The notes under the pieces: model-generated
The model's database searches: none
Seen by the model: the letters and a program-made list of their open reading frames with translations, nothing else
What the model was told of the DNA's origin: nothing
Shown here: positions 18,570-64,000 of the stretch, in pieces
Numbering within the stretch: position 1 is the first letter of the stretch
Layout of the letters: every line of letters begins with the position of its first letter
Assembly (NCBI GenBank): GCA_944474755.1
Contig: OX104115.1
Span: 71,338,993 to 71,402,992, forward strand
Length of the DNA: 64,000 nt
Direction: 5' to 3'
Origin: Limnoperna fortunei
Taxonomy: Eukaryota > Mollusca > Bivalvia > Mytilida > Modiolidae
Translations under genes and position numbers: made by a program

Positions 18570-19619
18570 CATTTGTTCTGAGAACAAATGAGAAGGTCTT
18601 TCCCACTGTTCCTCTAAAGTCAGAAAAGTTAGGTATTGCTATGGGATTTTGTCTTGGTATAGCATAAAATGTCACTTCCAGTCATAAAAAAGAGTTATTT
18701 GAGTAAAGAAGGTGGTCTGGAACCAAAAAATATATGGTTGTTAAGGACTTTCATTCCGTTGCTAGGGACAAAAGGCCACTTCCGGCCATGTAATGACATA
18801 TTTCAGTAAAGTACATCATTCTGATTCTAAAAATATATATGGTTGCTAAGGACTTTTTATAAGAGTTACCTTGTTGTTATGGTATGACCTTGACCTATGA
18901 CCTTTGCCCTTAGGCTCAAATTGAAGCTCTTTTCCTACTGATCATGATAAACCTATATGTTTACTATATTATCTCTAACCGTTTTCAAGTTTTAACCAAA
19001 AAACCGATTAACCGAAACGCGTCAAGGGCAGTAACTCAAAAATGGTTCATTGTACAGCTTCGGGTCAAATGTACTAAATGAAGGTCTCAATAAGAGGAGT
19101 ATTTTTCCCATTTATTGTCTGCTTCTATCTTTTATGGTTTGTGAGATATAGTGCTAACAAGACCTATGGTGACTTTTGACCTTGATATTTGACCTTTGAC
19201 CTTGACATTTTTAAATGTAACACATGTCACTTTGGATCAATGGTGGTGGTCCCAAGTCTCTAGGACTTACAGTTTTTGAGAAAAAAATTTTGACGCGTTG
19301 CGACATTTTTCAGATCAAAAACACGTAAACAGGAAGTCGATTGGGAAAAAAAATTTTGTATGACAAATCATCGCTATAGGACCAGCGACATTTTTTACAC
19401 TTAAGATTTTAAGAATCGATTACGGTTTCTGAGTTTATCTGCTAACAAGGGTTTACGGTGTTGGGGCAGATAACTCTGTTACTAAAAATAGATCGAGTTC
19501 ACAGGGTGAACTGAGTCATCTGACAGTATGACCGATTAATGGTACCAAGTATGAAAATGATATGTCGCGACACTTTTTTGCAAATGATGGCGGAAAAAAA
19601 AAGAAAAATAATAATAAAT
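18570..19619 (+). repeat. train unit A1 (family A)
   Basis: The left palindrome CATTTGTTCT-G-AGAACAAATG (18570-18590) is followed by AGAAGGTCTTTCCCACTG. The body contains AAATATATGGTTGTTAAGG, a TGACCTTGACCTATGACC block (18889), a TGACCTTGATATTTGACC block (19180), and GGGGCAGATAACTCTGTTAC (19462). It ends GGCGGAAAAAAAAAGAAAA(TAA)n. Orientation (+) is my convention, hairpin to AAT tail. Small reading frames inside have no recognisable product. Confidence 0.85.
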
Positions 19620-21081
19620 ATAGGTTCAATCGTTCTAAAGAACGATTAATAGGCTTTCCACTTCAAAAGAAGACCTTAAATAAATGACCTTGAAACCAAA
19701 AAGCTAAGAAACATACGTAATTTGTCTATAGCAATTAATAAGAACAAAAAATATTAAAAAAACTATTTAGATATCTTTAAAAATAAGAAAGGTCATTAAA
19801 TAGAACGTAAGAAAACTTGAATGACCTTGACAACTGATCTTTTAATCTACGTAAATATTACTTATAGGCAATAGCATTAAAAGAAGAAGCCATTCAAAAT
19901 ACATAGTACCATGAAAAACATTTATAAAGGACTTTGACCTTGACTTTTACAGCATGACCTTGACCATGCTGAAGGTCAACAGTGATCAACATTGAAGATT
20001 TTATGCCAATATCTCTTAAAGTCATTAAGATATGACTACTTATAATATATACAAAAAATTAGAAAATGACCTTGACCTTTGACCTTGTATTTGTTTTCAA
20101 GGTCAAGGGTCCTAATGATCCATAGTGAAGACCCCATGCCTCTACTATCAATAGTTGATAAGTAATTAATGAAAAACTAATTATCAATGGTTGTAATGGG
20201 GGATAACTCCTATAAGATGAAGCCGGATCCTTTCCCTCTAAATAGAAAAAAGTTGCGCCTTTATGAGACCAACATTTTATCCATTATAACTTATAGCCTA
20301 TCTTTTACCGTTTCAAAGTAATAGCGATGACAAGACAATGACAAAATTTCAAACGTGACCTTGACCTTTGACCTTGTGTCCATTTTCAAGGTCAAGGTCA
20401 ATGATGACCAATGATATAAGGTTTCATATATATATCTGTTATAGTTACTGAGATATAGTGATATAATGCAACTCACAATACATTTTATTGGTCTAGGGGA
20501 GATAACTCTTATAAAAATGTCAAATAAAAAAAGTGACGATTCAAGATCTCAATATGATACACATTTTGGTAAAGCTTTCAGTTCCCTATCTATTATAGTA
20601 AAGGAGGAGATCTGCACACAACCAAGTGTCAAAAATTAGAACATGACCTTGACCTTTGACCTTGTGACCTTTTTCAAGGTCAAGGTCAATGATGACCAAC
20701 TGTGAAATATCTAGTCTATATCACCTCTGTTTCATGAGTTACAATGGTACAAATTGTACTTCCAATAAATAAGGGGAAATAACTCCTACAAGGATTCGTC
20801 AAAATACTTTGCGCGATATGTAACAAATTGTCGCAATCCATAGCTGACCATTTTGCAACAACTTTTTTTGCGAAATCTTTTACGGTTTCATAGTTTATCT
20901 GCACACAAGCTTTTCTGTAACAGGGGAGATAACTCCGTAAAGAACAAGTGTTCGGTGTGACAGGGTCAACTGCGAAAGCGTAATGTCTTATACATCCATA
21001 GTACAAAATGTCTTTACAACATGTCGCGAAACAAAATTTATAATGGGAAAAGAAAACTTGGCGGAAAAAAATAAGAATAAT
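19620..21081 (+). repeat. train unit D1 (family D)
   Basis: The left palindrome AATCGTTCTAAAGAACGATT (19628-19647) is followed by AATAGGCTTTCCACTTC. The body has four groups of TGACCTTGACCTTTGACCTT facing CAAGGTCAAGGTCA within ~50 bases, which can fold as hairpins (20070, 20358, 20644 and the weaker 19929 block). Repeated GGGGAGATAACTC-type motifs occur. The right end is CTTGGCGGAAAAAAATAAGAATAAT. Confidence 0.85.
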
Positions 21082-22528
21082 TAAAGTTCATTGGTTCTAC
21101 CGAACAAATGATGGCTTTCCACTTATCGCAAAAATGACTCTGACATTGACTTTGGTTTTATGGAAATTGACATTTCTTTTCAAATTAAACAAAGGAAAGA
21201 AAAAACCATTCGGCTATCTTTCGAAATAAAAAAGGTAAAAAATTAGGACGTTAATTGACATAAATGCCCTTGACCAGCAAGTTTTTGATATTTGGATACT
21301 TAATGCTTTAAAAACAAAGCATTTATTAAGAACTACCATTTTATTTACACGAAAAAGCAGAAGTTCCGAAAAATATGTTTTGACATTGACTTCTGTCAAT
21401 ATGACCTTGACCATGCTGAGGGTCAATAAAGGACAAACAGTGAAGATCTCATGTCAATATGTCGTATAATTATGAAGAAATGACTATTTATCATAAATAC
21501 CAAAATTTATAAGATGACCTTGACCTTTGACCTTGTTTCTATTTTCAAGGTCAAGGGTCATACTGGTCTATAGTGAAGACCCAATGCCTCTACTATCAAT
21601 AGCTGATAAGTAATTAATGAAAACCTAATTATCAGTGGTTGTAATGGGGGATGACTCCTATAAGATGAAGTCGGATCCTTTCCCTCCAAATGTAAAAAAG
21701 TTGCGCCTTAATGAGACCAACATTTTATCAATTATAACTTATAGCTTATCTTTTACCGTTTCAATGCAATTGCGATGACAAGACAATGTCAAAATTTCAA
21801 ACGTGACCTTGACCTTTGACCTTGTGTCCAGTTTCAAGGTCAAGGTCAATGATGACTAATGATATAAGGTTTCATATAAATATCTGTTATAGTAACTGAG
21901 ATATAGTGATATAATGTAATTCACAATATATTTTATTGGTCTAGGGGAGATAACTCTTATAAAACTGTCAAATAAAAAAGTGACGATTCAAGATCTTAAT
22001 ATGATACACATTATGGTAAAGGTTTCAGTTCTCTATCTATTATAGTAAAGGAGGAGATCTGCACACAACAAAGGGTCAAAAATTAGAACATGACCTTGAC
22101 CTTTGACCTTGTGACCTTTTTCAAGGTCAAGGTCAATGATGACCAACTGTGAAATATCTAGTCTCTGTCATCTCTGGTTCATGAGTTACAATGGTACAAA
22201 ATGTACTTCCAATAAATAAGGGGAAATAACTCCTACTAGGAGTCGTCAAAATACTTTGCGCGATATGTAATAAATTGTCGCGATCAATAGCTGAGCATTT
22301 TGCAACAACTTTCATTGCAAAATCTTTTACGGTTTCAAAGTTTTTCTGCACACAAGATTTTTATGACAGGGGAAATAACTCCGTAAAGAAAAAGTGTTCG
22401 GTGTGACAGGGTTAACTGCGAAAGCGTAATGTCTCATACATTCAAAGTACAAAATGTCTTTACGACATGTCGTGAAACAAAATTTATAATGGGAAAGGAA
22501 GAAACTTGGCGGAAGAATAATAAGAAAT
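21082..22528 (+). repeat. train unit D'1 (family D variant)
   Basis: It starts with CATTGGTTCTACCGAACAAA, an imperfect version of the left palindrome, then TGATGGCTTTCCACTTATCG. The left ~400 bases differ from family D, but the rest is collinear with it, including the TGACCTTGACCTTTGACC hairpins. It ends CTTGGCGGAAGAATAATAAG. Confidence 0.8.
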
Positions 22529-23989
22529 ATAGGTTCAATCGTTCTAAAGAACGATTAATAGGCTTTCCACTTCAAAAGAAGACCTTAAATAAATGACCTT
22601 GAAACCAAAAAGCTAAGAAACATACGTAATTTGTCTATAGCAATTAATAAGAACAAAAATTATTAAAAAACTATTTAGATATCTTTAAAAATAAGAAAGG
22701 TCATTAAATAGGACGTAAGAAAACTTGAATGACCTTGACAACTGATCTTTTAATCTACGTAAATATTACTTATAGGCAATAGCATTAAAAGAAGAAGCCA
22801 TTCAAAATACATAGTACCATGAAAAACATTTATAAAGGACTTTGACCTTGACTTTTACAGCATGACCTTGACCATGCTGAAGGTCAACAGTGATCAACAT
22901 TGAAGATTTTATGCCAATATCTCTTAAAGTCATTAAGATATGACTACTTATAATATATACAAAAAATTAGAAAATGACCTTGACCTTTGACCTTGTATTT
23001 GTTTTCAAGGTCAAGGGTCCTAATGATCCATAGTGAAGACCCCATGCCTCTACTATCAATAGTTGATAAGTAATTAATGAAAAACTAATTATCAATGGTT
23101 GTAATGGGGGATAACTCCTATAAGATGAAGCCGGATCCTTTCCCTCTAAATAGAAAAAAGTTGCGCCTTTATGAGACCAACATTTTATCCATTATAACTT
23201 ATAGCCTATCTTTTACCGTTTCAAAGGAATAGCGATGACAAGACAATGCCAAAATTTCAAACGTGACCTTGACCTTTGACCTTGTGTCCGTTTTCAAGGT
23301 CAAGGTCAATGATGACCAATGATATAAGGTTTCATATATATATCTGTTATAGTTACTGAGATATAGTGATATAATGCAATTCACAATACATTTTATTGGT
23401 CTAGGGGAGATAACTCGTATAAAAATGTCAAATAAAAAAAGTGACGATTCAAGATCTCAATATGATACACATTTTGGTAAAGGTTTCAGTTCTCTATCTA
23501 TTATAGTAAAGGAGGAGATCTGCACACAACCAAGGGTCAAAAATTAGAACATGACCTTGACCTTTGACCTTGTGACCTTTTTCAAGGTCAAGGTCAATGA
23601 TGACCAACTGTGAAATATCTAGTCTATATCACCTCTGGTTCATGAGTTACAATAGTACAAAATTTATTTCCAATAAAGAAAGGGAAATAACTCCTATAAG
23701 AAGGTGAAAAATTCTTCACTGCGATATGTTATAAAGTGTCGCAATCCTTAGATGAACATTTTGCAACAACTTTCATTGCGAAATCTTTTACGGTTTCATA
23801 GTTTATCTGCACACAAGCTTTTTATGACAGGGGAAATAACTCCGTAAAGAAAAAGTGTTCGGTGTCACAGGGTTAACTGCGCAAGCGTAATGTCTCATAC
23901 ATCCATTGTACAAAATATCTTTACGACATGTCGCGAAACAAAATTTATAATGGGATAACAAAACTTGGCGGAAACAAAATAAGAATAAT
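22529..23989 (+). repeat. train unit D2 (family D)
   Basis: The left ~1.1 kb is nearly identical to D1. Palindrome AATCGTTCTAAAGAACGATT at 22537-22556. The right ~300 bases carry a variant segment (AAGAAGGTGAAAAATTCTTC) shared with the units at 47.3 and 50.3 kb. It ends CTTGGCGGAAACAAAATAAG with AATAAT. Confidence 0.85.
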
Positions 23990-24160
23990 AAGAAACAGAC
24001 TAATAACAGTAAGTCTTTCCACTGGAAAGTGGAAAGCCTTAATAATAAGAAACAGACAAAATGCAATAAGTCTTTCCACTGGAAAGTGGAAAGCCTTAAT
24101 AATAAGAAACAGAAGAATAACAAGAAGGCTTTCCACTCGGAAAGTGGAAAGCCTTAATAA
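23990..24160 (+). repeat. three mini hairpin units (D-type)
   Basis: Three tandem units of about 55-59 bases have the form AATAAGAAACAGA-...-TAAGTCTTTCCACTGGAAAG-TGGAAAGCCTTAAT. The stem AGGCTTTCCACT/AGTGGAAAGCCT matches the word after the palindrome in the adjoining D unit. The third unit (CTTTCCACTCGGAAAGTGGA) differs in the loop. Confidence 0.88.
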
Positions 24161-24165: not shown

Positions 24166-24552
24166 CATTTGTTCTGAGAACAAATGAGAAGGTCTTTCCC
24201 ACTGTTCCTCTTAAGTAAGAAAAGTTAGGTGATGCTATGCGACATTTTTCAGGTCAAAAACGCGTAAACAGGGAGTCGATTGGAAAAAAAAATTTGCATG
24301 ACAAATCATCGCCATAGGACAAGCGACATTTTGTACACTTCAGATTTTAAGAATCGGTTACGGTTTCTGAGTTTATCTGCTAACAAGGGTTTTCGTGTTG
24401 GGGCAGATAACTCTGTTACTAAAAATAGATCGGTCTAAAAGCATGAGCCATGTCATCTCCGGATATGACCGATTGATGTTACCAAGTATCGAAATGATAC
24501 GTCCAGACACTTTTTGGCAAACCTCCGCGGAAGAAGAAAAATGATAATAATT
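24166..24552 (+). repeat. train unit A2, internally deleted family A copy
   Basis: It has the normal left palindrome (24166-24186) and normal right end (CTCCGCGGAAGAAGAAAAAT). However, GTGATGCTATG is joined directly to CGACATTTTTCAGG near 24239, removing roughly 660 bases present in the other A units. Both ends being intact suggests the termini alone suffice for mobility. Confidence 0.82.
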
Positions 24553-24559: not shown

Positions 24560-27500
24560 CATTTGTTCTGAGAACAAATGTGAAGGTCTTTCCCGCATTG
24601 TCCCAATTTCCATAGAAAAAACTGACGTTAAATGTCAAACAATAAGCCCCAGAGGGTAAAAATCTATTATTTTATATTGTAAAATACCCGTAGACCTCCT
24701 TCTTCCCCCGGTTTCTTTTCTATTGTTTCTATAACATTCTAATTATTAAAAAAGGGCCCGGCCCCCAACCAGGGCCAGCATGTAAACTTATTTTGTTATA
24801 CATCTTGGTATTTTTGATTGATTGTCTCACATTGATTTAGAAATAGCTTTGCACTAATTTTGAGAAAAAAACGGAAAAATGGGACTCTGCAGATTTAAAT
24901 ATTGTGACAAAAAGTTTTAAAAATTCATTTACATTATTTTGGTGTGAAATAAATACTTCTTAGTCATTTTGCTCTATTTATAGTTACACATTAAATGAAC
25001 ACTATTTTTCACTGAGGTGTCTTCGTCGAAGCTCGCGTTCATAGCATTTTGTCAGCGTCTTCTGTCTCTCTCGTTCTGTGTGGATGTATACTACATAAAG
25101 CACGATCTTTAATCTCAGTGATTATTTATTTCTGGAGGACACGGAATATTATAAACGGAGCATGCCGACGATTATTTAAAGACATTATTTTCACATTATT
25201 TAATAGGAATTTCACGCTGGAAAATAAGGACACGAGTCACGTAGCAGACGACCGAATACACAAAAATTCACGTCGGAAATTGTTTCAATTTGATTAAAAT
25301 GTGAGGTAAAATGCAGTTCGGATAGTTAGAACAACTTGTTGAGAAACAATTTACACTATGATTCACTGAAGATAACTGAAATGGACATCACAGCAGACGA
25401 AATATACAAATAAGGGGGAGGGGTGGTCATGTGCTTCAATCTGGGATTTGAAGGATTTATTGACTCGTATACTTTGAGGAAATACGTTTTTAGACTGAAA
25501 TCCACATTCTAAACGGAAAGTATTTTCTTTTTACCTAACAAAGTAAGTTGATTAAATTTAGTGTTTTGGTTATGTACATTGAAAAAATGTACACTTTGAA
25601 AGTAGACCAAACTACATAACATTTTATGCAAACTTATTTTGTCATACATCTTGGTGTTTATAATTGATTGTCTCCATACAATATTATTATTATGGTTCAG
25701 AAATAGCTTTGTACTCATTTTTAAAGGAGAAACACACTAAAATGGGACACAACAGCTTTAAATATTTTGAATTTAATAATTAAACAATAAGGAAAAGAGG
25801 GAAACTTGTAGAAATCACAAGGTTTTGTTTTAGCATTGGTTTAAAATGTGTCGATTTAGGCTATTGTCACAGTGTTGAATATTTTTTCATGAAAATCTAA
25901 GGAATATAGTGTACCATTTTTAAAGTAATTGCACTTAAAATTGCTAGTTTCTGTATAAATGTGCAAGTTAACATCATTTCAATCATTTTAATAATTATCA
26001 CATTTGGTTCAATACAGCAATTTTGTAACAAAGTGCATGTTTTCTTCACTCAACACATAATTACGCATTGTAGGAACTCGCTCAATGTTCATTATTTTAT
26101 CAATTTTTGCCAAAAGTTAGTTTTTTATGTTACAAAAAGTACATTTAGTATGTACTTAAAATTTGAAATTATTAGTTAAGCCATTTTGAAATGTCCATCA
26201 TTGAAAAATTTTAAGTCTCATATGATTACCCCTTTCTATGCCAAAAAGTACTAATATCTTGATACATATTAATTCTTAGTTGTTTTTTTTTTCGCTCGAC
26301 CAGGCTTATCAGGTCCATATCAAATTAGCTCGAAGATATTTAAGATACTCTCTAGATACTGGTTATGTGTTACGTTTTATATATTGTAACACTTCTTAGT
26401 GTCTGGACAGGTCTGATTAATTGCATCAAAGATGTGTATTTTTTTTTTCGTGATGTATGTTTTCCTTAATATTCATGAGCTTTGGTCAGTGATGTACGAT
26501 TGGTCAAAAAGCTAGGCAGATTCTTCACGCACGACATATGACCATGACGATGCTGTTAACTATATAATCTCTAACCGTTTTCAAGTTAAAGTCAAAAACC
26601 GAATAACAGAAATGCGTCAAGACTGATAACTCTAATACAGTTCATATAACAGTTTCAGATACAAAATACTAAATGAAGGTTTTGATGAGAGGACCACTTT
26701 AAATATAGATGTTTACTATATTATCTCTAACCGTTTTCAAGTTTTAACCAAAAAACCGATTAACCCAAACACGTCAAGGGCTGTAACTCGAAAACGGTTC
26801 ATAGCAGTTTCGGGTCAAATGTACCAAATGAAGGTCTCAACAAAATTTAGCCGATACATGTCAAGGGCCATAACCTGGAAAACGGTTTGTCGCACAGTTT
26901 TCGACACTATATATCAAATGTAGATTTAAATGAGAGAAACATTTATCTAATATATTGTCTGCTTCAATTTTTTTATTGTTTTTGAATTATATTGAAAACA
27001 AAATTTAGCCGAAACAAGTCAAGGGCCATAACCATGAAAACGGTTTGTCGCACAGTTTTCGACACTATATATCAAATGTAGATCTCAATGAGAGGAACAT
27101 TTTTCTGATATATTGTTTGCTTCAATTTTTTATGGTTTTTGAGTTATATTGAAAACAAAATTTAGCCGAAACCTGTCAAGGGCCATAACCTCTAAAACGG
27201 TTTGTCGCACAGTTTTCAACTATTTATATCAAATGTAGACCTCAGTGAGAGGAACATTTTTTGGATATATTGTCTGCTTCAATTTTTTATGGTTTTTGAG
27301 TTATTTTGAAAACAAAATTTAGCCGAAACCTGTCAAGGGCAATAACTCCTAAACTGTTCATTGAACAACTTTTGACATAAAAGACCAAATGTAGGTCTCA
27401 ATGAGAGGAGTATTTTTCAAATTTATTGTCTGCTTCTATCTTTTATGGTTTGGGAGATATAGTGCTAACAAGACCTATGGTGACCTTTGACCTTGACTTT

Positions 27501-27924
27501 TGACCTTTGACCATGACATTTTTAAATGTAACATATGTCACTTAGGATCAATGGTGGTGGTCCCAAGTCTCTAGGACTTGCGGTTTTTGAGAAAAAAATT
27601 TTGACGCATTGCGACATTTTTCAGGTCAAAAACGCGTAAACAGGAAGTCGATTGGAAACAAAATTTTGCATGACAAATCATTGCCATAAGTCCAGCAACA
27701 TTTTGTACACTTCAGATTTTGATAATCGGTTAGGGTTTCTTAGTTTATCTGCTAACAAGGGTTTACGGTGTTGGGGCAGATAACTCTGTTACTAAAAATA
27801 GATCGGTTTCACAGGGTGAACCAAGTCATCTCTGGATATGACCGATTAATAGTACCAAGTATCGAAATGATATGTCGCGACACTTTTTGGCAAACCTCAG
27901 CGGAAGAAGAAAAATAATAATAAT
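24560..27924 (+). repeat. train unit B1 (family B, composite)
   Basis: The left palindrome (24560-24580) is followed by TGAAGGTCTTTCCCGCATTG. The first ~950 bases are a diverged relative of family C (AATAAGCCCCAGAGGGT, GGGCCCGGCCCCCAACCAGG, CACGTAGCAGACGA, TGCAGTTCGGATAGTTAGAA). A middle AT-rich part follows to about 26520. Then come ~155-base subrepeats with AGCCGAAACCTGTCAAGGGC (26.8-27.4 kb) and the family A right end. It may be a fusion of older units. Confidence 0.75.
26850..27410 (+). repeat. ~155-bp subrepeat array in B1
   Basis: About four copies of a module ACATTTTTCTGATATATTG-TCTGCTTCAATTTTTTATGG-TTTTTGAGTTAT-AGCCGAAACCTGTCAAGGGC. The same module is multiplied in A3, B2 and F, showing independent expansion or contraction. 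Confidence 0.8.
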
Positions 27925-27932: not shown

Positions 27933-29302
27933 CATTTGTTCTGAGAACAAATGAGAAGGTCTTTCCCCCTGTTCCTCTAAAGTCAGAAAAGTTAGGTACT
28001 GCTATGGGATTTTGTCTTGGTATAGCACAAAAATGTCACTTCCAGTCATAAAAAAGAGTTATTTGAATTTAACCGAAACCTGTCAAGGGCCATAACCTCT
28101 AAAACGGTTTGTCGCATAGTTTTTGAACCTGTATATCAAATGTAGATCTCAATAAGAGGAACATTTTTCTGATATATTGTCTGCTTCAATTTTTTTATGG
28201 TTTTTGAGTTATTTCGAAAACAAAATTTAGCAGAAACCTGTCAAGGGCCATAACCTCTAAAACGGTTTGTCGCACAGTTTTTGAACCTGTATATCAAATG
28301 TAGATCTCAATGAGAGGAACATTTTTCTCATATATTGTCTGCTTCAATTTTGTATGGTTTTTGAGTTATTTCGAAAACAAAATTTTACCGAAACCTGTCA
28401 AGGGCCATAACCTCTAAAACGGTTTGTCGCACAGTTTTTGAACCGTTATATCAAATGTAGATCACAATGAGAGGAACATTTTTCTGATATATTGTCTGCT
28501 TCAGTTTTGTATGGTTTTTGAGTTATTTTGAAAACAAAATTTAGCCGAAACCTCTCAAGGGCCATAACCTCTAAAACGGTTTGTCACACAGTTTTCGAAC
28601 CCTATATCAAATGTAGATCTCAATGAGAGGAACATTTTTCTCATATATTGTCTGCTTCAATTTTGTATGGTTTTTGAGTTATTTCGAAAACAAAATTTAG
28701 CCGAAACCTGTCAAGGGCCATAACCTCTAAAACGGTTTGTCACACAGTTTTCGAACCTTTATATCAAATGTAGATCTCAATGAGAGGAACATTTTTCTCT
28801 TATATTGTCTGCTTCAATTTTTTATGGTTTTTGAGTTATATTGAAAACAAAATTTCAATGGCGGCCATTTTGAAAATGGTGGACCAAAAAAATTTTTTGA
28901 TCCGATACATGTAATTAGGACCCTCATATCTACTTGGAAACCAAGTTTTGTGTAAATCCGACAACTTTGACATTTTCGACAAACTTCGCGTCAAAATCGA
29001 GTAAACAGGAAGTGGATCCAAGAATGTTTTTTGCATGACAAATCATCGCCATAGAACCAGCGACATTTTGTACACTTTAGATTTTAAGAATCGGTTACGG
29101 TTTCTGAGTTTATCTGCTAACAAGGTTTTCGGTGTTAGGGCAGATAACTCTGTTACTAAAAATAGAACAGTCTCACAGGGTGAGCCAGGTCATCTCCTGG
29201 TATGAGCAATTAAACGTACCAAGTATCATAATGATATGTTGAAACCCCTTCTGGCAAACCCATTTGGAAAAATGGGGAGAAAAAGAAAAATAATAATAAT
29301 TA
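27933..29302 (+). repeat. train unit A3 (family A, with subrepeats)
   Basis: A-type left palindrome at 27933. The interior is replaced from about 28067 by five to six copies of the ~155-base CCGAAACCTGTCAAGGGCC module. A segment with GGCGGCCATTTTGAAAATGG (28860) shared with unit F follows, then the family A right end at 29285. Confidence 0.82.
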
Positions 29303-29308: not shown

Positions 29309-30375
29309 CATTTGTTCTGAGAACAAATGAGAAGGTCTTTCCCACTGTTCCTCTAAAGTGAGAAATTATATGCGATGCTTTGGGATTTTGTGTCTTGCTA
29401 AGCACAAAATGTCACTTCCAGTCATAAAAATGAGTTATTTGAGTATAGAAAGTGGTCCCGAGCCAAAAAATATATGGTTGTTAAGGACTTTCATTCGGTT
29501 GCTAGGGACAAAATGGTACTTCCGGTCATAATATGACATATTTCAGTGCAGTACATCATTCTGAATCTCAAAATATATGGTTGCTAAGGACTTTTTATAA
29601 CAGTCACCTTGTTGCTATGGTATGACCTTGACCTATGACCTTTGACCTTTGGCTCAAATTGAAGCTCTTTTCATACTGATCACTTTAAACCTATATGTTT
29701 ACTATATTATCTCTAACCGTTTTCAAGTTTTAACCAAAAAACCGATTAACCGAAACGCGTCAAGGGCAGTAACTCAAAAATGGTTCATTGTACAGCTTTG
29801 GGTCAAATGTACCAAATGAAGGTCTTAATAAGAGGAGTATTTTTCCCATTTATTGTCTGCTTCTATCTTTTATGGCTTGTGAGATAAAGTGCTAACAACA
29901 CCTATGGTGACCTTTGACCTTGACTTTTGACCTTTGACCTTGACATTTTTAAATGTAACATATGTCACTTAGGATCAATGGTGGTGGTCCCAAGTCTCTA
30001 GGACTTACGGTTTTTGAGAAAAGAATTTTGACGCGTTGCGACATTTTTCAGGTCAAAAACACGTAAACAGGAAGTCGATTGGAAAAAAAAATTTTGCATG
30101 ACAAATTATTGCTATAGGACCAGCGACATTTTTTACACTTAAGATTTTAAGAATCGATTACGGTTTCTGAGTTTATCTGCTAACAAGGGTTTACGGTGTT
30201 GGGGCAGATAACTCCGTTACTAAAAATAGATCGAGTTCACAGGGTGAACTGAGTCATCTGACAGTATGACCGATTAATGGTACCAAATATGAAAATGATA
30301 TGTCGCGACACTTTTTTGCAAATGATGGCGGAAAAAAAAAGAAAAATAATAATAATAATAATAATAATAATAATC
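29309..30375 (+). repeat. train unit A4 (family A)
   Basis: Full A unit with palindrome at 29309. It contains GACCTTTGACCTTGACTTTT-GACCTTTGACC near 29910-29940 and ends GGCGGAAAAAAAAAG followed by a long (AAT)n run to 30375. Its right end is closest to that of A1. Confidence 0.85.
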
Positions 30376-30531
30376 ATAAGAAAGGTAAGAAGGTCTTTCC
30401 ACTGTAGTGGGAAAGACCTTAATAATCATAAGAAAGGTAAGAAGGTCTTCCCACTGTAGTGGGAAAGACCTTAATAATAATCATAAGAAAGACAAGAAGG
30501 TCTTTCCCTTGGAAAAGGGGAAAGACCTTAA
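30372..30531 (+). repeat. three mini hairpin units (A-type)
   Basis: Three units AATCATAAGAAAGGTAAG-AAGGTCTTTCCACTGTAGTG-GGAAAGACCTTAAT. The third has loop CTTGGAAAAGG. The stem AAGGTCTTTCC/GGAAAGACCTT is the word that follows the palindrome in family A units. Confidence 0.88.
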
Positions 30532-30554: not shown

Positions 30555-31600
30555 CATTTGTTCTGAGAACAAATGAGAAGGTCTTTCCCACTGTTCCTCT
30601 TAAGTAAGAAAAGTGATGTGGGATTTTGTGTCTTGCTATAGCACAAAATGTCACTTCCAGTCATAAAAATGAATTATTTGAGTAAAGAAAGTGGTCCCGA
30701 GCCAAAAAATATATGGTTGTTAAGGACTTTCATTCGGTTGCTAGGGACAAAAGGCCACTTCCGGTCATGAAATGACATATTTCAATAAAGTACATCATTC
30801 TGATTCTAAAAATATATAGTTGCTAAGGACTTTTTATAACGGTCACCTTGTTGCTAGGGTATGACCTTGACCTATGACCTTTGATCTCTGGCTCAAATTG
30901 AAGCTCTTTTCCTACTGATCATGTTTAACCTATATGTTTACTATATTATCTCTAACCGTTTTCACGTTTTAACCAAAAAAGCGATTAACCGAAACGCGTC
31001 AAGGGCAGTAACTCGAAAATGGTTCATCGCACAGCTTCGGGTCAATGTACCAAATGAAGGTCTCAATAAGTGGAGTATTTTTCCCATTTATTGTCTGCTT
31101 CTATCTTTTATGGTTTGCGAGATATAGTGCTAACAAGACCTATGGTGACCTTTGACCTTGACTTTTGACCTTTGACCTTGACATTTTTAAATGTAACATA
31201 TGTCACTTAGGATCAATGGTGGTGGTCCCAAGTCTCTAGGACTTACGGTTTTTGAGAAAAAATTTTTGACGCGTTGCGACATTTTTCAGGTCAAAAACGC
31301 GTAAACAGGAAGTCGATTGAAAAAAAAAAAATTTGCATGACAAATCATCGCCATAGGACCAGCGACATTTTGTACACTTCAGATTTTAAGAATCGGTTAC
31401 GGTTTCTGAGTTTATCTGCTAACAAGGGTTTTCGTGTTCGGGCAGATAACTCTGTTACTAAAAATAAATCGGTCTAAAAGCATGAGCCATGTCATCTCCG
31501 GATATGACCGATTAATGGTACCAAGTATCGAAATGATACGTCCAGACACTTTTTGGCAAACCTCCGCGGAAGAAGAAAAATAATAATAATAATAATAATT
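30555..31600 (+). repeat. train unit A5 (family A)
   Basis: Palindrome at 30555, standard A body, right end CTCCGCGGAAGAAGAAAAAT with about eight AAT repeats. Confidence 0.85.
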
Positions 31601-31607: not shown

Positions 31608-32653
31608 CATTTGTTCTGAGAACAAATGAGAAGGTCTTTCCCACTGTTCCTCTAAAGTGAGAAAATTTAGGTGATGCTATGGGATTTTGCGTCTTGCTAT
31701 AGCACAAAATGTCACTTCCAGTCATAAAAATGAATTATTTGAGTAAAGAAAGTGGTCTCGAGCCAAAAAATATATGGTTGTTAAGGACTTTCATTCGGTT
31801 GCTAGGGACAAAAGGCCAATTCCGGTGATGAAATGAAATATTTTAGTAAAGTACATCATTCTCAATCTAAAAATATATGGTTGCTAAGGACTTTTTATAA
31901 CGGTCACCTTGTTGCTATGGTATGACCTTGACCTATGACCTTTGACCTTGGCTCAAATTGAAGCTCTTTTCCTACTGATCATGTTTAACATACATGTTTA
32001 CTATATTATCTCTAACCGTTTTCAAGTTTTAACCAAAAAGCCGATTAACCGAAATGCGTCAAGGGCAGTAACTCGAAAACGGTTCATTGCACAGCTTCCG
32101 GTCAATGTACCAAATGAAGGTCTCCATAAGAGGAGTATTTTCCCCATTTATTGTCCGCTTCTATCTTGTATGGTTTGTGAGATATAGTGCTAACAAGACC
32201 TATGGTGACCTTTGACCTTGACTTTTGACCTTTGACCTTGACATTTTTAAATGTAACATATGTCACTTAGGATCAATGGTGGTGGTCCCAAGTCTCTAGG
32301 ACTTACGTTTTTTGAGAAAAAAAATTTGACGCGTTGCGACATTTTTCAGGTCAAAAACGCATAAACAGGAAGTTGATTGGAAAAAAAAAATTTGCATGAC
32401 AAATCATTGCCATAGGACCAGCGACATTTTTTACACTTCAGATTATAAGAATCGGTTACGGTTTCGGAGTTTATCTGCTAACAAGGGTTTTCGTGTTGGG
32501 GAAGATGACTCTGTTACTAAAAATAGATCGGTCTAAAAGCATGAGCCATGTCATCTCCGGATATGATCGATTGATGTTAGCAAGTATCGAAATGATACGT
32601 CCAGACACTTTTTGGCAAACCTCCGCGGAAGAAGAAAAAAAATAATAATAATA
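31608..32653 (+). repeat. train unit A6 (family A)
   Basis: Palindrome at 31608, standard A body including the TGACCTTTGACCTTGACTTT block at 32208, right end at 32620-32653. Confidence 0.85.
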
Positions 32654-33685
32654 AAAAGACATTTGTTCTGAGAACAAATGCGAAGGTCTTTCCTGCGTTG
32701 TCCCTATTTCCATAGAAAAAACTGACGTTAAACGTCAAACAATAAGCCCCAGAGGGTAAAAATCTATTATTTTATATTGTAAAATACCCGTAGACCTCCT
32801 CCTTCCCCCGGTTTCTTTTCTATTGTTTCTATAACATTCTAATTATTAAAAAAGGGCCCGGACCCCCAACCAGGGCCAGCATGTAAACTTATTTTGTTAT
32901 ACATCTTGGTATTTTTAATTGATTGTCTCACATTGATTTAAAAATAGCTTTGCACTAATTTTGAGAAAAAACGGGAAAATGGGACTCTGCAGATTTAAAT
33001 ATTGTGACAAAAATTTGTTAAACTAGTTTTAAAAGTTCATATACATTATTTTGGTGTGAAATAAATACTTCTTAGTCATTTCGCTCTATTTATAGTAACA
33101 CATTAAATGAACACTTTACATTTTGCTGAGGTGTCTTCGTCGAAGCTCGCGTTCATAGCATTTTGTCAGTGTCTTCTGCTCTCTCGTTCTGTGTGGACGT
33201 ATACTAGATAAAGCACGATCTTTAATCTCAGTTATTTATTTCTGGAGGACACGGATTATTATAAACAGAGCATGCCGACGAACATTTAAAGACATTTTTC
33301 ACATTATTTCATAGGAATTTCACGCTGGAAAATAAGGACACGAGTCACGTAGCAGACGACCGAATACACAAAAATTCACGTCGGAAATTGTTTCAATTTG
33401 ATTAAAATGTGAGGTAAAATGCAGTTCGGATAGTTAGAACAACTTATTGAGAAACGATTTACACTATGATTCACTGACGATAACTGAAATGGACATCACA
33501 GCTGACGAAATTTACAAATAAGGGAGAGGGGTGGTCATGTGCTTCAATCTGGGATTTCAAGGATTTATTGACTCGTATACTTTGAGGAAATACGTTTTTA
33601 GACTGAAATCCACATTCTAAACGGAAAGTATCTTCTTTTTACCTAACAAAGTAAGTTGATTAAATTTAGTGTTTTGGTCATGTAT

Positions 33686-34328: not shown

Positions 34329-34764
34329 GTCATGTATATATGAAAAAATGTACACTATGAAAGTAGACCAAACTTCATAACATTTTATGCAAACTTATTT
34401 TGTCATACATCTTGGTATTTTTAATTGTCTCCATACAATATTGTTATTATGATTCAGAAATAACTTTGTACTTATTTTTAATGGAGAAACACACTAAAAT
34501 GGGACACAACAGCTTTACATATTTTTAAATTTAATAATTAAACAATAAGGAAAAGAGGGAAACTTGTAGAAATCACAAGGTTTTGTTTTAACATTGGTTT
34601 AAAATGTGTCGATTTAGGCTATTGTCACAGTGTTGAATATTTTTTCATGAAAATCTAGGAATATAGTGTACCATTTTTAAAGTAATTGCACTTAAATTGC
34701 TAATTTCTGTATAAATGTGCAAGTTAACATCATTTCAATCATTTTAATAATTATCACATTTGGT

Positions 34765-39270: not shown

Positions 39271-39277
39271 AAAATGC

Positions 39278-43853: not shown

Positions 43854-43860
43854 ATAAGTT

Positions 43861-45307: not shown

Positions 45308-45415
45308 AACAGACAAATAACAGGAAGGCTTTCCACTCGGAAAGTGGAAAGCCTTAATAAGAAACAGACTAATAACAATAAGGCATTCCACTCGGAAGTG
45401 GAAAGCCTTAATAAT
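45302..45415 (+). repeat. two mini hairpin units (D-type)
   Basis: ACAGGAAGGCTTTCCACTCG-GAAAGTGGAAAGCCTTAATA, then a second copy with one mismatch and a one-base deletion in the stem (AAGGCATTCCACTCGGAAGT). Confidence 0.85.
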
Positions 45416-47627: not shown

Positions 47628-49089
47628 AATCGTTCTAAAGAACGATTAATAGGCTTTCCACTTCAAAAGAAGACCTTAAATAAATGACCTTGAAACCAAA
47701 AAGCTAAGAAACATACGTAATTTGTCTATAGCAATTAATAAGAACAAAAATTATTAAAAAACTATTTAGATATCTTTAAAAATAAGAAAGGTCATTAAAT
47801 AGGACGTAAGAAAACTTGAATGACCTTGACAACTGATCTTTTAATCTACGTAAATATTACTTATAGGCAATAGCATTAAAAGAAGAAGCCATTCAAAATA
47901 CATAGTACCATGAAAAACATTTATAAAGGACTTTGACCTTGACTTTTACAGCATGACCTTGACCATGCTGAAGGTCAACAGTGATCAACATTGAAGATTT
48001 TATGCCAATATCTCTTAAAGTCATTAAGATATGACTACTTATAATATATACAAAAAATTAGAAAATGACCTTGACCTTTGACCTTGTATTTGTTTTCAAG
48101 GTCAAGGGTCCTAATGATCCATAGTGAAGACCCCATGCCTCTATTATCAATAGTTGATAAGTAATTAATGAAAAACTAATTATCAATGGTTGTAATGGGG
48201 GATAACTCCTATAAAATGAAGCCGGATCCTTTCCCTCAAAATAGAAAAAAGTTGCGCCTTTATGAGACCAACATTTTTATCCATTATAACTTATAGCCTA
48301 TCTTTTACCGTTTCAAAGTAATAGCGATGACAAGACAATGCCAAAATTTCAAACGTGACCTTGACCTTTGACCTTGTGTCCATTGTCAAGGTCAAGGTCA
48401 ATGATGACCAATGATATAAGGTTTCATATATATATCTGTTATAGTTACTGAGATATAGTGATATAATGTTCTTCACAATACATTTTATTGGTCTAGGGGA
48501 GATAACTCTTATAAAAATGTCAAATAAAAAAAGTGACGATTCAAGATCTCAATATGATACACATTTTGGTAAAGGTTTCAGTTCTCTATCTATTATAGTA
48601 AATGAGGAGATCTGCACACAACCAAGGGTCAAAAATTAGAACATGACCTTGACCTTTGACCTTGTGACCTTTTTCAAGGTCGAGGTCAATGATGACCAAC
48701 TGTGAAATATCTAGTCTATATCACCTCTGGTTCATGAGTTACAATGGTACAAATTTTACTTCCAATAAATAAGGGGAAATAACTCCTACAAGGAGTCGTC
48801 AAAATACTTTGCGCGATATGTAACAAATTGTCGCAATCCATAGCTGACCATTTTGCAACAACTTTTATTGCGAAATCTTTTACGGTTTCATAGTTTATCT
48901 GCACACAAGCTTTTCTGTAACAGGGGAAATAACTCCGTAAAGAACAAGTGTTCGGTGTGACAGGGTCAACTACGAAAGCGTAATGTCTTATACATCCATA
49001 GTACAAAATGTCTTTACGACATGTCGCGAAACAAAATTTATAATGAGAAAAGAAAACTTGGCGGAAAAAAATAAGAATAATAATAATAA
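47628..49089 (+). repeat. train unit D3 (family D)
   Basis: Palindrome at 47628-47647. Nearly identical to D1 with scattered substitutions (for example CATTGTCAAGGTCAAGG at 48382). Confidence 0.87.
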
Positions 49090-49099: not shown

Positions 49100-50552
49100 A
49101 ATCGTTCTAAAGAACGATTAATAGGCTTTCCACTTCAAAAGAAGACCTTAAATAAATGACCTTGAAACCAAAAAGCTAAGAAACATACGTAATTTGTCTA
49201 TAGCAATTAATAAGAACAAAAATTATTAAAAAACTATTTAGATATCTTTAAAAATAAGAAAGGTCATTAAATAGGACGTAAGAAAACTTGAATGACCTTG
49301 ACAACTGATCTTTGAATCTACGTAAATATTACTTATAGGCAATAGCATTAAAAGAAGAAGCCATTCAAAATACATAGTACCATGAAAAACATTTATAAAG
49401 GACTTTGACCTTGACTTTTACAGCATGACCTTGACCATGCTGAAGGTCAACAGTGATCAACATTGAAGATTTTATGCCAATATCTCTTAAAGTCATTAAG
49501 ATATGACTACTTATAATATATACAAAAAATTAGAAAATGACCTTGACCTTTGACCTTGTATTTGTTTTCAAGGTCAAGGGTCCTAATGATCCATAGTGAA
49601 GACCCCATGCCTCTATTATCAATAGTTGATAAGTAATTAATGAAAAACTAATTATCAATGGTTGTTATGGGGGATAACTCCTATAAGATGAAGCCGGATC
49701 CTTTCCCTCTAAATAGAAAAAAGTTGCGCCTTTATGAGACCAACATTTTATCCATTATAACTTATAGCCTATCTTTTACCGTTTCAAAGTAATAGCGATG
49801 ACAAGACAATGCCAAAATTTCAAACGTGACCTTGACCTTTGACCTTGTGTCCATTTTCAAGGTCAAGGTCAATGATGACCAATGATATAAGGTTTCATAT
49901 ATATATCTGTTATAGTTACTGAGATATAGTGATATAATGCAATTCACAATACATTTTATTGGTCTAGGGGAGATAACTCTTATAAAAATGTCAAATAAAA
50001 AAAGTGACGATTCAAGATCTCAATATGATACACATTTTGGTAAAGGTTTCAGTTCTCTATCTATTATAGTAAAGGAGGAGATCTGCACACAACCAAGGGT
50101 CAAAAATTAGAACATGACCTTGACCTTTGACCTTGTGACCTTTTTCAAGGTCAAGGTCAATGATGACCAACTGTGAAATATCTAGTCTATATCACCTCTG
50201 GTTCATGAGTTACAATGGTACAAATTGTACTTCCAATAAATAAGGGGAAATAACTCCTATAAGAAGGTGAAAAATTCTTTAATGTGATATGTTATAAAGT
50301 GTCGCAATCCTTAGCTGAACATTTTGGAACAACTTTCATTGCGAAATCTTTTACGGTTTCATAGTTTATCTGCACACAAGCTTTTTATGACAGGGGAAAT
50401 AACTCCGTAAAGAAAAAGTGTTCGGTGTCACAGGGTTAACTGTGAGAGCGTAATGTCTCATACATCCATAGTACAAAATATATTTACGACATGTCGCGAA
50501 ACAAAATTTATAATGGGATAACAAAACTTGGCGGAAAAAAAATAAGAATAAT
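49100..50552 (+). repeat. train unit D4 (family D)
   Basis: Palindrome at 49100-49119. It is D-like to about 50260, then carries the AAGAAGGTGAAAAATTC variant right part seen in D2 and E. Confidence 0.87.
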
Positions 50553-50606
50553 AAGAAACAGACTAATAACAGTAAGTCTTTCCACTGGAAAGTGGAAAGC
50601 CTTAAT
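50548..50606 (+). repeat. single mini hairpin unit (D-type)
   Basis: AATAAGAAACAGACTAATAA-CAGTAAGTCTTTCCACTGG-AAAGTGGAAAGCCTTAAT. Matches the first mini at 23990. Confidence 0.85.
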
Positions 50607-50613: not shown

Positions 50614-52363
50614 CATTTGTTCAAAGAACAAATGTGAGGTCTTTCCCGGCATTTTCTTAGTGTTATGTCTAGGTATATGGTTGCTAATTTTGAAAATTGC
50701 TGCCCATAACCATTGGACTTTGGTCCTAAATCGAAGGGCTTGTTGAGACGGTCACAAAAAACCCATGTTCACTATATTATCTCTGACAGTCTGACGTTTA
50801 AAAGTTATAAGCCATAAACTGATTAGCCGAAAAATGTCAAAGGCCATAACTTGAAAACGATTTGTCGCACAGTTTTCAATAATTTAAATCAAATGTAGAT
50901 CTCAATGAGAGCAACATTTTTCTGATATATTGTCTGCTTAATATTTTTATGGTTTTTGAGTTATTTCGAAAACAAAATTTAGCCGAAACCAGTCAAGGGT
51001 CATAACCTCTAAAACGGTTTGTCGCACAGTTTTTGAACCTGTATATCAAATGTAGATCTCAATGAGAGGAACATGTTTCTGATATATTGTCTGCTTCAAT
51101 TTTTTATGGTTTTTGAGTTATTTCGAAAACAAAATTTAACTGAAACCTGTCAAGGGCCATAACCTCTAAAACGGTTTGTCGCACAGTTTTCCAACTGTTA
51201 TATCAAATGTAGATCTCAATGAGAGGAACATTTTTCTGATATATTGTTTGCTTCAATTTTTTACGGTTTTTGAGTTATTTCGTAAAAAAATTTAGCCGAA
51301 ACCAGTCAAGGGCCATAACCTCTAAAACGGTTTGTCGCACAGTTTTTGAACATCTATATTAAATGTAGATCTCAATAAGAGGAACATTTTTCTGATATAT
51401 TGTCTGCTTCAATTTTTTATGGTTTTTGAGTTATTTCGAAAACAAAATTTATCCGAAACCTGTCAAGGGCCATAACCTCTAAAACGGTTTGTCGCACAGT
51501 TTTCGAACTGTTATATTAAATGTAGATCGTAATGAGAGGAACATTTTTCTCATATATTATCTGCTTCAATTTTGTATGGTTTTTGAGTTATTTCGAAAAC
51601 AAAATTTAGCCGAAACCTGTCAAGGGCCATAACCTCTAAAACGGTTTGTCGCACAGTTTTAGAACTGTCATATTAAATGTAGATCTTAATGAGAGGAACA
51701 TTTTTCTCATATATTATCTGCTTCAATTTTGTATGGTTTTTGAGTTATTTCGAAAACAAAATTTAGCCGAAACCTGTCAAGGGCCATAACCTCGAAAACG
51801 GTTTGTCGCACAGTTTTCAAACCTATGTATCAAATGTAGATCTCAATGAGAGGAACATTTTTCTCATATATTATCTGCTTCAATTTTTTATGGTTTTTGA
51901 GTTATATTGAAAACAAAATTTCAATGGCGGCCATTTTGAAAATGGTGGACCAAAAAAATTTTTTGATCCGATACATGTAATTAGGACCCTCATATCTACT
52001 TGGAAACCAAGTTTTGTGTAAATCCGACAACTTTGACGTTTTCGACAAACTTCGCGTCAAAATCGCATAAACAGGAAGTGGATCAAAGAATGTTGTTTTG
52101 CATGACAAATCATGGCCATAAATCAGGCAACATTTTACTCACTTTAGATTTTTGATATCTGTCATTGTTTCTGAGTGTATCTGAACACAAGGGTAAACAG
52201 TGTTTGGGGAGATAACTCTGTTTCTAAAAATAGATCGGTGTCGCAGGGTGACTCGGGTCGAGCCCAAGTAGTGTCGGTTAAGTGTGCCAAGTTTCAAAGC
52301 GATACGTCAAGACACTTTTTTGACATCTGTGGCAGAAGAAAAAAAATAATAATAATAATAATA
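50614..52363 (+). repeat. train unit F (relative of A3)
   Basis: The left palindrome CATTTGTTC-AAA-GAACAAATG (50614-50634) is followed by TGAGGTCTTTCCCGGC. It contains about seven ~157-base subrepeats (50.87-51.9 kb), the GGCGGCCATTTTGAAAATGG segment shared with A3, and an A-like right part with GGGGAGATAACTCTGTTTC. It ends GTGGCAGAAGAAAAAAAATAAT. Confidence 0.82.
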
Positions 52364-52475
52364 ATCATAAGAAATACAGTAAGGTCTTTCCCTCGGAAAG
52401 GGGAAAGACCTTAATAATAATAAGAAACAGAAGAATAACAAGAAGGCTTTCCACTCGGAAAGTGGAAAGCCTTAA
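52362..52475 (+). repeat. one A-type and one D-type mini hairpin unit, adjacent
   Basis: AAGGTCTTTCCCTCGGAAAG-GGGAAAGACCTT (A-type stem, next to A-like unit F) is directly followed by AAGGCTTTCCACTCGGAAAG-TGGAAAGCCTT (D-type stem, before unit D5). It is the only junction in the window with both types, and it lies between an A-like and a D unit. Confidence 0.88.
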
Positions 52476-52491: not shown

Positions 52492-53960
52492 AATCGTTCT
52501 AAAGAACGATTAATAGGCTTTCCACTTCAAAAGAAGACCTTAAATAAATGACCTTGAAACCAAAAAGCTAAGAAACATACGTAATTTGTCTATAGCAATT
52601 AATAAGAACAAAAATTATTAAAAAACTATTTAGATATCTTTAAAAATAAGAAAGGTCATTAAATAGGACGTAAGAAAACTTGAATGACCTTGACAACTGA
52701 TCTTTTAATCTACGTAAATATTACTTATAGGCAATAGCATTAAAAGAAGAAGCCATTCAAAATACATAGTACCATGAAAAACATTTATAAAGGACTTTGA
52801 CCTTGACTTTTACAGCATGACCTTGACCATGCTGAAGGTCAACAGTGATCAACATTGAAGATTTTATGCCAATATCTCTTAAAGTCATTAAGATATGACT
52901 ACTTATAATATATACAAAAAATTAGAAAATGACCTTGACCTTTGACCTTGTATTTGTTTTCAAGGTCAAAGGTCCTAATGATCCATAGTGAAGACCCCAT
53001 GCCTCTACTATCAATAGTTGATAAGTAATTAATGAAAAACTAATTATCAATGGTTGTAATGGGGGATAACTCCTATAAGATGAAGCCGGATCCTTTCCCT
53101 CTAAATAGAAAAAAGTTGCGCCTTTATGAGGCCAACATTTTATCCATTATAACTTATAGCCTATCTTTTACCGTTTCAAAGTAATAGCGATGACAAGACA
53201 ATGTCAAAATTTCAAACGTGACCTTGACCTTTGACCTTGTGTCCATTTTCAAGGTCAAGGTCAATGATGACCAATGATATAAGGTTTCATATATATATCT
53301 GTTATAGTTACTGAGATACAGTGATATAATGCAATTCACAATACATTTTATTAGTCTAGGGGAGATAAATCTTATAAAAATGTCAAATAAAAAAAGTGAC
53401 GATTCAAGATCTCAATATGATACACATTTTGGTAAAGGTTTCAGTTCTCTATCTATTATAGTAAAGGAGGAGATCTGCACACAACCAAGGGTCAAAAATT
53501 AGAACATGACCTTGACCTTTGACCTTGTGACCTTTTTCAAGGTCAAGGTCAATGATGACCAACTGTGAAATATCTAGTCTATATCACCTCTGGTTCATGA
53601 GTTACAATGGTACAAATTTTACTTCCAATAAATAAGGGGAAATAACTCCTACAAGGAGTCGTCAAAATACTTTGCGCGATATGTAACAAATTGTCGCAAT
53701 CCATAGCTGACCATTTTGCAACAACTTTTATTGCGAAATCTTCTACGGTTTCATAGTTTATCTGCACACAAGCTTTTCTGTAACAGGGGAGATAACTCCG
53801 TAAAGAACAAGTGTTCGGTGTGACAGGGTCAACTGCGAAAGCGTAATGTCTTATACATCCATAGTACAAAATGTCTTTATGACATGTCGCGAAACAAAAT
53901 TTATAATGGGAAAAGAAAACTTGGCGGAAAAAAATAAGAATAATAATAATAATAATAATA
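52492..53960 (+). repeat. train unit D5 (family D)
   Basis: Palindrome at 52492-52511, near-identical to D1 and D3. Its AAT tail (53939-53960) is longer than in the other D units. Confidence 0.87.
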
Positions 53961-54014
53961 AGAAACAGAAGAATAACAAGAAGGCTTTCCACTCGGAAAG
54001 TGGAAAGCCTTAAT
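53958..54014 (+). repeat. single mini hairpin unit (D-type)
   Basis: AAGAAACAGAAGAATAACAA-GAAGGCTTTCCACTCGGAAA-GTGGAAAGCCTTAAT, immediately before the first C unit of the array. Confidence 0.85.
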
Positions 54015-63000: not shown

Positions 63001-64000
63001 AACGGACCATGCCGACAATTAATAAAAGACTTTTTTATTTTATTTTAGTGGAATTTTACACTGTAAAATAATTACACGAGGCACGTAGCAGACGATGGAA
63101 TACACAAAAAAGTGACGTCGGAAATTGTTTCAATTTGTTATTGTTTCAGGTAAAATGCAGTTCGGACAGTTAGAACAACTGGTTGACACACGATTTACAC
63201 GGTCATTCACTGACGATGGCTGAAACGGACATCACGACAGACGAAATTTACGTGGCTGGGGGGAGGGGTGGTCACGTGTTTCAACGTGGGATTTTAAGGA
63301 TTTATTGACTCGCACACCTTACGGGGGGACATTTTTAGACTGAAATCGACATTCTAAAGCGAATGGCGAGGGTTTCAAACAGCTGGGATGCATCGTTTTT
63401 CGGGAAATTACGATTTTTACATAAAAAGTGGTGTTGGACTTGCACGACTGGTAACTTTTTACTGGTTGCGCCCAGCGATTTTCTACCTATCGACAATTCG
63501 AGGACATCGATCGCAGATGCAATCGGCGTCCATTTTATTGTACCATTTTGTGTGCCTTAGGAGGAGATGTGATAACAACGTTTTCATGGGGGGTCCCTGC
63601 CACGCCCTCATTTTTGACGGGGCGTGCTAACAGGGTGAATGGGAGAAAGCCCACGGGGTATCCATCACACCGCCAAATTTTCAGCTCGATCGGATAAGAA
63701 ACTTTTTGGCAGCACTAAATTGAATTTTAGATCGGAAGAAAAGTAATAATAATATTAAAAGGACATTTGTTCTGTAGAACAAATGCACGGGAAGGTCTTT
63801 CCCTGGCTTTCGTTTCTATAGGAAAAACTGGCGTTAAACGTTAAACAAGAGGCCCCAGAGGGTGAAAATCTATCATTTTACATCGTAATATACCGGTATA
63901 CACCCCCCCCCCCCCTTTCGGGGTTTCTATTCCATTGTTTCTAGAACGTTCTAATTACAAAATTGAAGAAAAAAAAAGGGCCCGGCCCCTCCACCCCAGG
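54023..64000 (+). repeat. 1392-bp tandem satellite array of family C (C2-C9)
   Basis: Units begin at the palindrome at 54023, 55412, 56804, 58196, 59588, 60980, 62372 and 63764 (partial). The period is 1392, except that C2 is 1389 because its C-run has 10 rather than 13 C. Units are almost identical by eye; a visible difference is A to G at 60840 and 63624. Each carries the GC-rich stem-loop, the TATA-like TGGTTATATAAAAACC, a GTCACGTGAC motif and the GGAAGAAAAGTAATAATAAT end. The array continues past the window. No coding function is supported. Confidence 0.95.

Follow-up and report, generated by a model that had tools for sequence, protein, structure and literature searches.

A train of 31 repeat units in Limnoperna fortunei, probably built by non-autonomous Helentrons inserted into one another

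How does a chromosome come to carry some thirty repeat units with different interiors, all in one order and one orientation? This question is raised by a train of repeats in Limnoperna fortunei (GCA_944474755.1, contig OX104115.1, positions 71,338,993 to 71,402,992 of the forward strand). The analysis covers one locus in one window, which is the whole stretch of 64,000 nt. Coordinates are window positions, and each unit is named by its anchor position. The train comprises 31 units of the same orientation, starts at ~18.56 kb and runs off the right edge of the window, which cuts the last unit. We propose, with a probability of roughly three in four, that these units, which span at least 45 kb, are non-autonomous Helentrons (HINEs) on the minus strand, more than twenty of which inserted as newcomers into the (ATT)n runs of older HINEs and thereby gave rise to nested brackets.

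An earlier note on this DNA, made from the letters alone, had described about 31 units with one order and orientation, and 31 were found on the + strand, each with a palindrome, AGGTCTTTCC or AGGCTTTCCAC (or a similar sequence), a body and an AAT run, in this order. No unit of opposite orientation was found in a motif scan allowing up to 1 substitution, because the reverse-complement motifs occurred in 15 hairpin mini-units only. The part order given in the note is right for the + strand, although the note had overlooked these mini-units and the fact that 54.0-64.0 kb is one 1392-bp unit repeated. Of the 30 junctions, 7 contain mini-units, and the run lengths are 3, 3, 3, 2, 1, 2, and 1. Each mini-unit measures 46-50 nt, of which the hairpin takes up 30-33 nt and the spacer 15-19 nt, and an ATT run comes next; the search for them required both hairpin arms, that is, the subterminal inverted repeat (subTIR) and the inverted repeat (IR). 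They fall into class A (AAGGTCTTTCC..GGAAAGACCTT) and class B (AAGGCTTTCC..GGAAAGCCTT or a variant with one changed base), and the long units likewise begin with one or the other of these classes. The GGCGGAAGAAGAAAA-like box, which had been ascribed to all units, was absent from some of them: the 1392-bp units carry GATCGGAAGAAAAG, and unit 27955 carries ATGGGGAGAAAAAG.

On the minus strand, the parts of a mini-unit and the long unit that follows it are ATT-AAGGTCTTTCC (subTIR), complementary IR, spacer, (ATT)n, body, GGAAAGACCTT (subTIR), ATTTGTTCT-AGAACAAAT palindrome, and a T-rich end. The 5' end of such a complete element is a T(T)-AAGG(T)CTTTCC.. subTIR, which forms a 5' hairpin with the IR. 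In this reading the AAT run is a microsatellite that belongs to the left end of the element itself, close to the 5' terminus, and the palindrome is close to the 3' terminus, which reverses the polarity assumed before (AAT as 3' tail, palindrome as 5' start). Arrays of a 157-bp central repeat were present in 4 units (24582, 27955, 32682, and 50635) and not in the others; such arrays are a feature of some HINE families and no requirement. Two publications (PMC4067079, PMC7492417) give the order of HINE parts as 5' subTIR, IR, microsatellite, central repeats, 3' subTIR, and palindrome. The structure, for which the note knew no named superfamily, thus matches HINEs part by part. This anatomy supports one of the alternatives listed in the note, a Helentron-like element on the opposite strand, and, together with the matched subTIR classes, non-autonomous elements with common termini. 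A canonical Helitron, with 5' TC and 3' CTRR-type ends, does not fit, as the left ends start with T(T)AAGG and the right ends are T-rich. TC and CTAG are named as Helitron ends in PMC2267711.

We considered whether the units could be + strand retroposons, similar to long or short interspersed elements (LINEs or SINEs), whose (AAT)n 3' tails primed on older tails. In favor of this, a tail-like A-rich box followed by AAT is present, and microsatellite-targeting LINEs exist. Such an origin is scarcely credible here, because the subTIR class of the mini-unit equalled the class of the adjacent body in 7/7 adjacent cases, and the positions of subTIR, IR, and palindrome match those of HINEs. LINE-type tail priming, another alternative of the note, would leave the mini-unit left ends and their matched subTIRs unexplained, and the + strand reading was rejected on these matched classes and part positions. 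There were 24 train open reading frames (ORFs) of at least 90 aa, of which 18 were scanned against Pfam (the other 6 are copies of an ORF of the body family termed A'). All matches were weak and below the cut-off, and no reverse transcriptase (RT) was among them; this is weak evidence against retroposons, because non-autonomous retroposons are also non-coding.

The palindrome stands beside the subTIR in 31/31 units, which were themselves located by their subTIR. The stem is perfect in 28 of them (9-11 bp). Units 21111 and 43884 have 9-10 bp stems with one uncompensated mismatch each, and unit 45448 has a 7-bp stem with a 7-nt loop. Of 2000 random 40-mers from the rest of the train, 27 scored at least 8 and 281 reached 6, the lowest score observed. 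The weakest stems alone are therefore within chance, and it is the fixed position of the palindrome that carries the weight. Changes in the right-end stem are compensated between the CATTTGTTCT and AATCGTTCT types and uncompensated in 21111 and 43884; the preservation of pairing reported in the note applies to most families. The IR arms of the left ends were paired over 13 bp in 15/15 cases, with 0-1 mismatch and one bulge allowed. Two left ends folded as DNA gave -11.7 and -14.2 kcal/mol, which 0/200 shuffles equalled; for two left and five right ends, 0 to 4 of 200 shuffles were as good (z -2.75 to -7.74). No Rfam family matched at its gathering score within the window.

Helentron Rep/helicase/endonuclease supplied from elsewhere may have acted through rolling-circle copying of single strands and insertion of the copies at TT, with the (ATT)n of an older HINE as the presumed preferred landing site. 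A newcomer that lands in (ATT)n splits its host between the left end and the body. Repeated insertion would thus produce an order of left end-left end-left end-body-body-body; the youngest element of a nest would then be the innermost one, and the oldest element the outermost (right end at ~18.56 kb). The narrower claim, that the left-end (ATT)n is the element's own landing pad and the preferred target for HINEs of several families, so that the locus grows by nesting, is one towards which we lean slightly. HINEs insert at TT without target duplication. Left ends here read ATT|AAGG and right ends read T-rich|ATT, a pattern that would be compatible with a cut within TT, although the ATT repeats make the position of the cut ambiguous. 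The right ends adjoin a HINE (ATT)n run or a left end in 30/31 units and unique DNA in 1/31, which agrees with the idea, already voiced in the note, that the AAT run of an earlier copy serves as landing site. A scan with up to 2 substitutions, which more decayed copies could escape, found no further HINE end signature within the bodies apart from two motifs in bodies of family A1; these are native to A1, because they lie at matching places across the A1 copies.

The nested arrangement was examined in the direction from right to left: each left end opens a bracket, each body closes one, and the two are paired last in, first out (LIFO). All 15 left ends were paired in this way. The classes agreed in 14/15 pairs (7/7 adjacent, 7/8 non-adjacent), and the subTIR match was exact over 11-15 bp in 14/15 pairs, including 7/7 adjacent ones. 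Left ends of identical sequence were paired with related bodies. The identical left ends 24125, 52443, and 53981 pair with the B1 bodies 19650, 47650, and 52514 (≤2.0% apart), and the identical left ends 24011 and 50574 pair with bodies 22559 and 49122 (1.6% apart); these two B1 groups differ by 3.2-3.9% and are separated in a tree. Similarly, the identical left ends 30497 and 38126 pair with 24582 and 32682, the only two A3 bodies. Only 24 of the 2592 within-run permutations hold each group of identical left ends to one body subfamily, and in the correlation between left-end and body similarity the LIFO order ranks 72/2592. When the adjacent pairs were kept fixed, it was the best order for this correlation.

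Since newcomers would split (ATT)n, the run of an intact element is expected to exceed each of the split parts in length. The intact runs measured 8, 30, 24, 17, 8, 21, and 23 nt (mean 18.7, n=7). In split runs, the mean was 11.8 nt on the body side (n=23, seven from the A' array) and 8.75 nt between left ends (n=8). The two parts of split runs, joined according to LIFO in the seven testable pairs, summed to 26, 21, 24, 19, 22, 17, and 15 nt (mean 20.6). These joins are ambiguous by a few bases because the right ends are T-rich too.

The same layout could have arisen by head-to-tail addition of HINEs, each newcomer settling beside the right end of its predecessor, followed by slippage between the flanking (ATT)n runs by which the left-end hairpins of most units were lost or a few were multiplied. 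A 5' hairpin between direct ATT repeats would be a classic set-up for deletion, junctions of the type left end-(ATT)-right end are present at 7 places, and 16 units are without left ends in the window. In addition, left ends 30390/30442 and 38072/38126 are 1 edit apart, and class-A left ends differ by 4.3 edits within runs vs 6.5 between runs. In class B the relation is reversed (6.0 edits within runs vs 4.7 between). For both classes together, the values are 5.0 edits within runs (10 same-class pairs) and 5.4 between (39 pairs), and 6672/20000 shuffles were as low. Moreover, the run 24011-24068-24125 contains two subtypes, each letter-identical in other runs, and the order of left ends fits the reversed order of body subfamilies. 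Slippage also does not predict that split ATT parts sum to about the intact length. Taken together, slippage seems an improbable, secondary candidate.

Several observations weigh against nested insertion, among them the similarity of class-A left ends within runs. The 16 bodies left over by the LIFO pairing (8 in the A' array) are without a left end in the window, so that most outer brackets are unseen and inferred. The sole class mismatch, the class-B left end 45380 paired with the A' body 42497, has a subTIR match of 7 bp only. The class-B subTIR mostly starts with TAGG at the right end and with AAGG at the left end, and the subTIR test is informative on class only. With adjacent pairs fixed, few orders are left: 1 of 16 passes the identity test, and the best rank in the correlation is out of just 8. 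The within-class correlation is weak (0.17), with LIFO at rank 221/2592 and a best order that is not LIFO. The difference between intact and body-side (ATT)n is also weak (one-sided p=0.039; 7 vs 16, A' array excluded), and two intact runs are just 8 nt long. A1 bodies that are neighbors on the map are slightly closer to each other than in shuffles (4.3% of shuffles as low). There was no direct sign of rolling-circle movement in the window, and no Rep, helicase, endonuclease, or RT domain of an autonomous partner in the 6 ORFs scanned left of the train and the 18 scanned train ORFs. Overall, the LIFO permutation and correlation tests provide moderate support for nesting, not proof.

The unit bodies were sorted into seven families by BLAST: A1 (9 full copies and one deleted), A2 (27955, 50635), A3 (24582, 32682), A' (42497 and the array), B1 (5 copies), B2 (21111, 43884), and B3 (45448). 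Segments are common to A1, A2, and A3, and likewise to B1, B2, and B3. This diversity bears on the possibility that unequal exchange or rolling-circle read-through produced the entire train as a tandem array. The A' block fits such an origin. Its six full periods compared at 54.0-64.0 kb are 0-1 bases from the first, its units 54050 and 55439 show no mismatch and 3 gap columns, and its junctions are an identical 11-nt ATT. For the train as a whole, we regard a tandem origin as very improbable, because there are seven body families, of which some have common segments, and because the bodies diverge by 2.3-10.4% in A1 and 1.6-3.9% in B1, the two families measured. The nearest relative is a non-adjacent unit for 11 of the 14 A1 and B1 bodies, and for the other 3 it is a tie that includes the neighbor. 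Close pairs lie far apart, such as 37023-41440 (2.3%) and 19650-52514 (1.7%), and map neighbors in B1 are not closer than in shuffles (96.7% of shuffles as low). Unequal exchange, one of the alternatives in the note, was accordingly rejected for the whole train on body divergence and retained for the 1392-bp A' array. The A' block is a recent tandem amplification; under the nested-HINE model it would have been amplified after the insertions, by unequal exchange or rolling-circle read-through. The array may be a satellite in formation or an assembly artefact.

All features of the train lie on the minus strand. The outermost one is an A1 body and right end (18592; 18571..19617), whose right end adjoins unique DNA at ~18560. 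It is followed by the B1b unit 19650 (19628..21081; predicted left end 24125), the B2 unit 21111 (21089..22523; predicted left end 24068), and the innermost B1a unit 22559 (22537..23991), adjacent to left end 24011. The three class-B left ends 24011, 24068, and 24125, each with subTIR and IR hairpin, spacer, and ATT, occupy 23992..24155. The next unit is an A1 body with an internal deletion (24188; 24166..24551), without a left end in the window. Beyond it lie the long A3 unit 24582 (24560..27924; 157-bp repeats at 26839-27451; predicted left end 30497), the A2 unit 27955 (27933..29300; five 157-bp repeats at 28066-28855; predicted left end 30442), and the A1 unit 29331 (29309..30374), whose adjacent left end 30390 has an intact (ATT)n of 30 nt. 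The class-A left ends 30390, 30442, and 30497 lie at 30375..30529.

The next nest is preceded by the A1 unit 30577 (30555..31599), which has no left end in the window. It contains the A1 unit 31630 (31608..32654; predicted left end 38183), the A3 unit 32682 (32660..36995; 157-bp repeats at 35909-36527; predicted left end 38126), the A1 unit 37023 (37001..38056; adjacent left end 38072), and the three class-A left ends 38072, 38126, and 38183 (38057..38215). Four serial A1 bodies and right ends (38249, 39300, 40391, and 41440; 38227..42464) are again without left ends in the window. The A' unit 42497 (42470..43854) has 4 mismatches vs the 1392-bp array unit, and LIFO pairs it with left end 45380, whose class does not match. 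The B2 unit 43884 (43861..45305; adjacent left end 45325) precedes the two class-B left ends 45325 and 45380 (45306..45409).

In the remaining part, the B3 unit 45448 (45424..47617) has no left end in the window. It is a hybrid HINE: part of its body is B1-like (90-92%), the rest is unlike B1, and its right end has diverged. The B1b unit 47650 (47628..49089) has the predicted left end 52443, and the B1a unit 49122 (49100..50554) adjoins the class-B left end 50574 (50555..50603). The A2 unit 50635 (50614..52365; seven 157-bp repeats at 50823-51921) adjoins left end 52381 of class A, which together with left end 52443 of class B occupies 52366..52473. The B1b unit 52514 (52492..53961) adjoins the class-B left end 53981 (53962..54011). 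The A' array of bodies and right ends, with its 1392-bp period from 54050, extends from 54023 to 64000 and runs off the window.

HINE bodies are open to other elements, as body 32682 holds repeats similar to miniature inverted-repeat transposable elements (MITEs) and SINEs. The MITE-like element is a 643-bp inverted repeat (33686-34328) flanked on either side by GTCATGTAT, as would be expected of a Mutator-type 9-bp duplication; in an ungapped comparison its ends match at 66 of the first 120 bases only. The SINE-like repeat of ~280 bp, tRNA-like by eye, is dispersed, with three copies at 17475-18511 and one from 34824. The latter, within 32682, is flanked by ACATAATTACGCA and ACATAATTATGCA, a 13-bp repeat with one mismatch. 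When window positions 1-18540 were searched by BLAST for isolated HINE copies, the only three matches were all to this SINE-like insert, and a pattern search that tolerated up to 5 mismatches yielded a single weak match near 5344. Three DNA patterns run against IMG/VR and one run against GTDB genomes had 0 matches. Left of the train, an ORF at 11270-11920 encodes a Mutator-like transposase domain (PF20700, E 5.1e-19), and an ORF at 14035-14766 encodes PML C-terminal and RNase_T exonuclease domains, with one relative of 88% identity in a protein search. Short tandem repeats are present at 17034-17320 (61 bp), 12666-12925 (125 bp), and 35087-35345 (102 bp).

To our knowledge, the target choice of Helentrons is little understood. 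Helitron-like elements reportedly occur in (GAAA)n microsatellites of Lepidoptera, judging by the title of a 2010 paper by Coates. Thomas et al. call for biochemical work (PMC4067079), and the microsatellites of oyster HINEs are described as eroding segments in PMC7492417. Should HINEs use their own microsatellite as a landing pad, this segment would gain a role, and HINE clusters could form without read-through. The bracket order would then be the chronology of insertion, making each train a dated record, and the far end of the train would be expected to carry a mirror run of left ends. Dispersed elements could in this way also give rise to satellite-like blocks, as represented here by the A' array. 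In a literature search, none of the titles and abstract openings described a train of this kind; full texts were covered in part, so absence from print is not shown.

The following comparisons with known systems are based on the accessible portions of the cited texts. The HINE/DINE-1-type Helentrons of Thomas et al. 2014 (PMC4067079) likewise have 11-15 bp subTIRs, an IR near the 5' subTIR, a microsatellite, a 3' palindrome, T-rich ends, and a tendency to cluster. Unlike here, clusters are accounted for by missed termination or neighboring insertion, and nesting in the own microsatellite is not described in those portions. The oyster Cg_HINE and the bivalve elements Pearl/MgE/DTC84 (PMC7492417) are also similar, with an LF part made of subTIR, IR, and microsatellite and an RF part made of subTIR and palindrome. 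They have in common with the present elements central repeats of 140-180 bp and several families with unrelated bodies; they differ in that the microsatellite units are mostly of 4 nt, the elements are dispersed, and no train is described there. The nearest precedent found is that of the 'shuffled' Helitron loci of Crassostrea gigas, with truncated or tandemized parts within other Helitrons, although a single landing site, bracket order, or train is absent from the account in PMC12628747. In maize and bat, different Helitrons are joined head to tail by successive insertion, as here (PMC2267711); in maize these are two abutting elements and not many nested at an internal microsatellite. Finally, the arrays of truncated Helitrons in plants (Xiong et al. 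2016, via PMC12628747) are ascribed to rolling-circle tandem amplification, by which the A' block, too, may have formed. In many of the plant arrays several 5' ends accompany a single 3' end, whereas here the repeat consists of the body and the 3' end.

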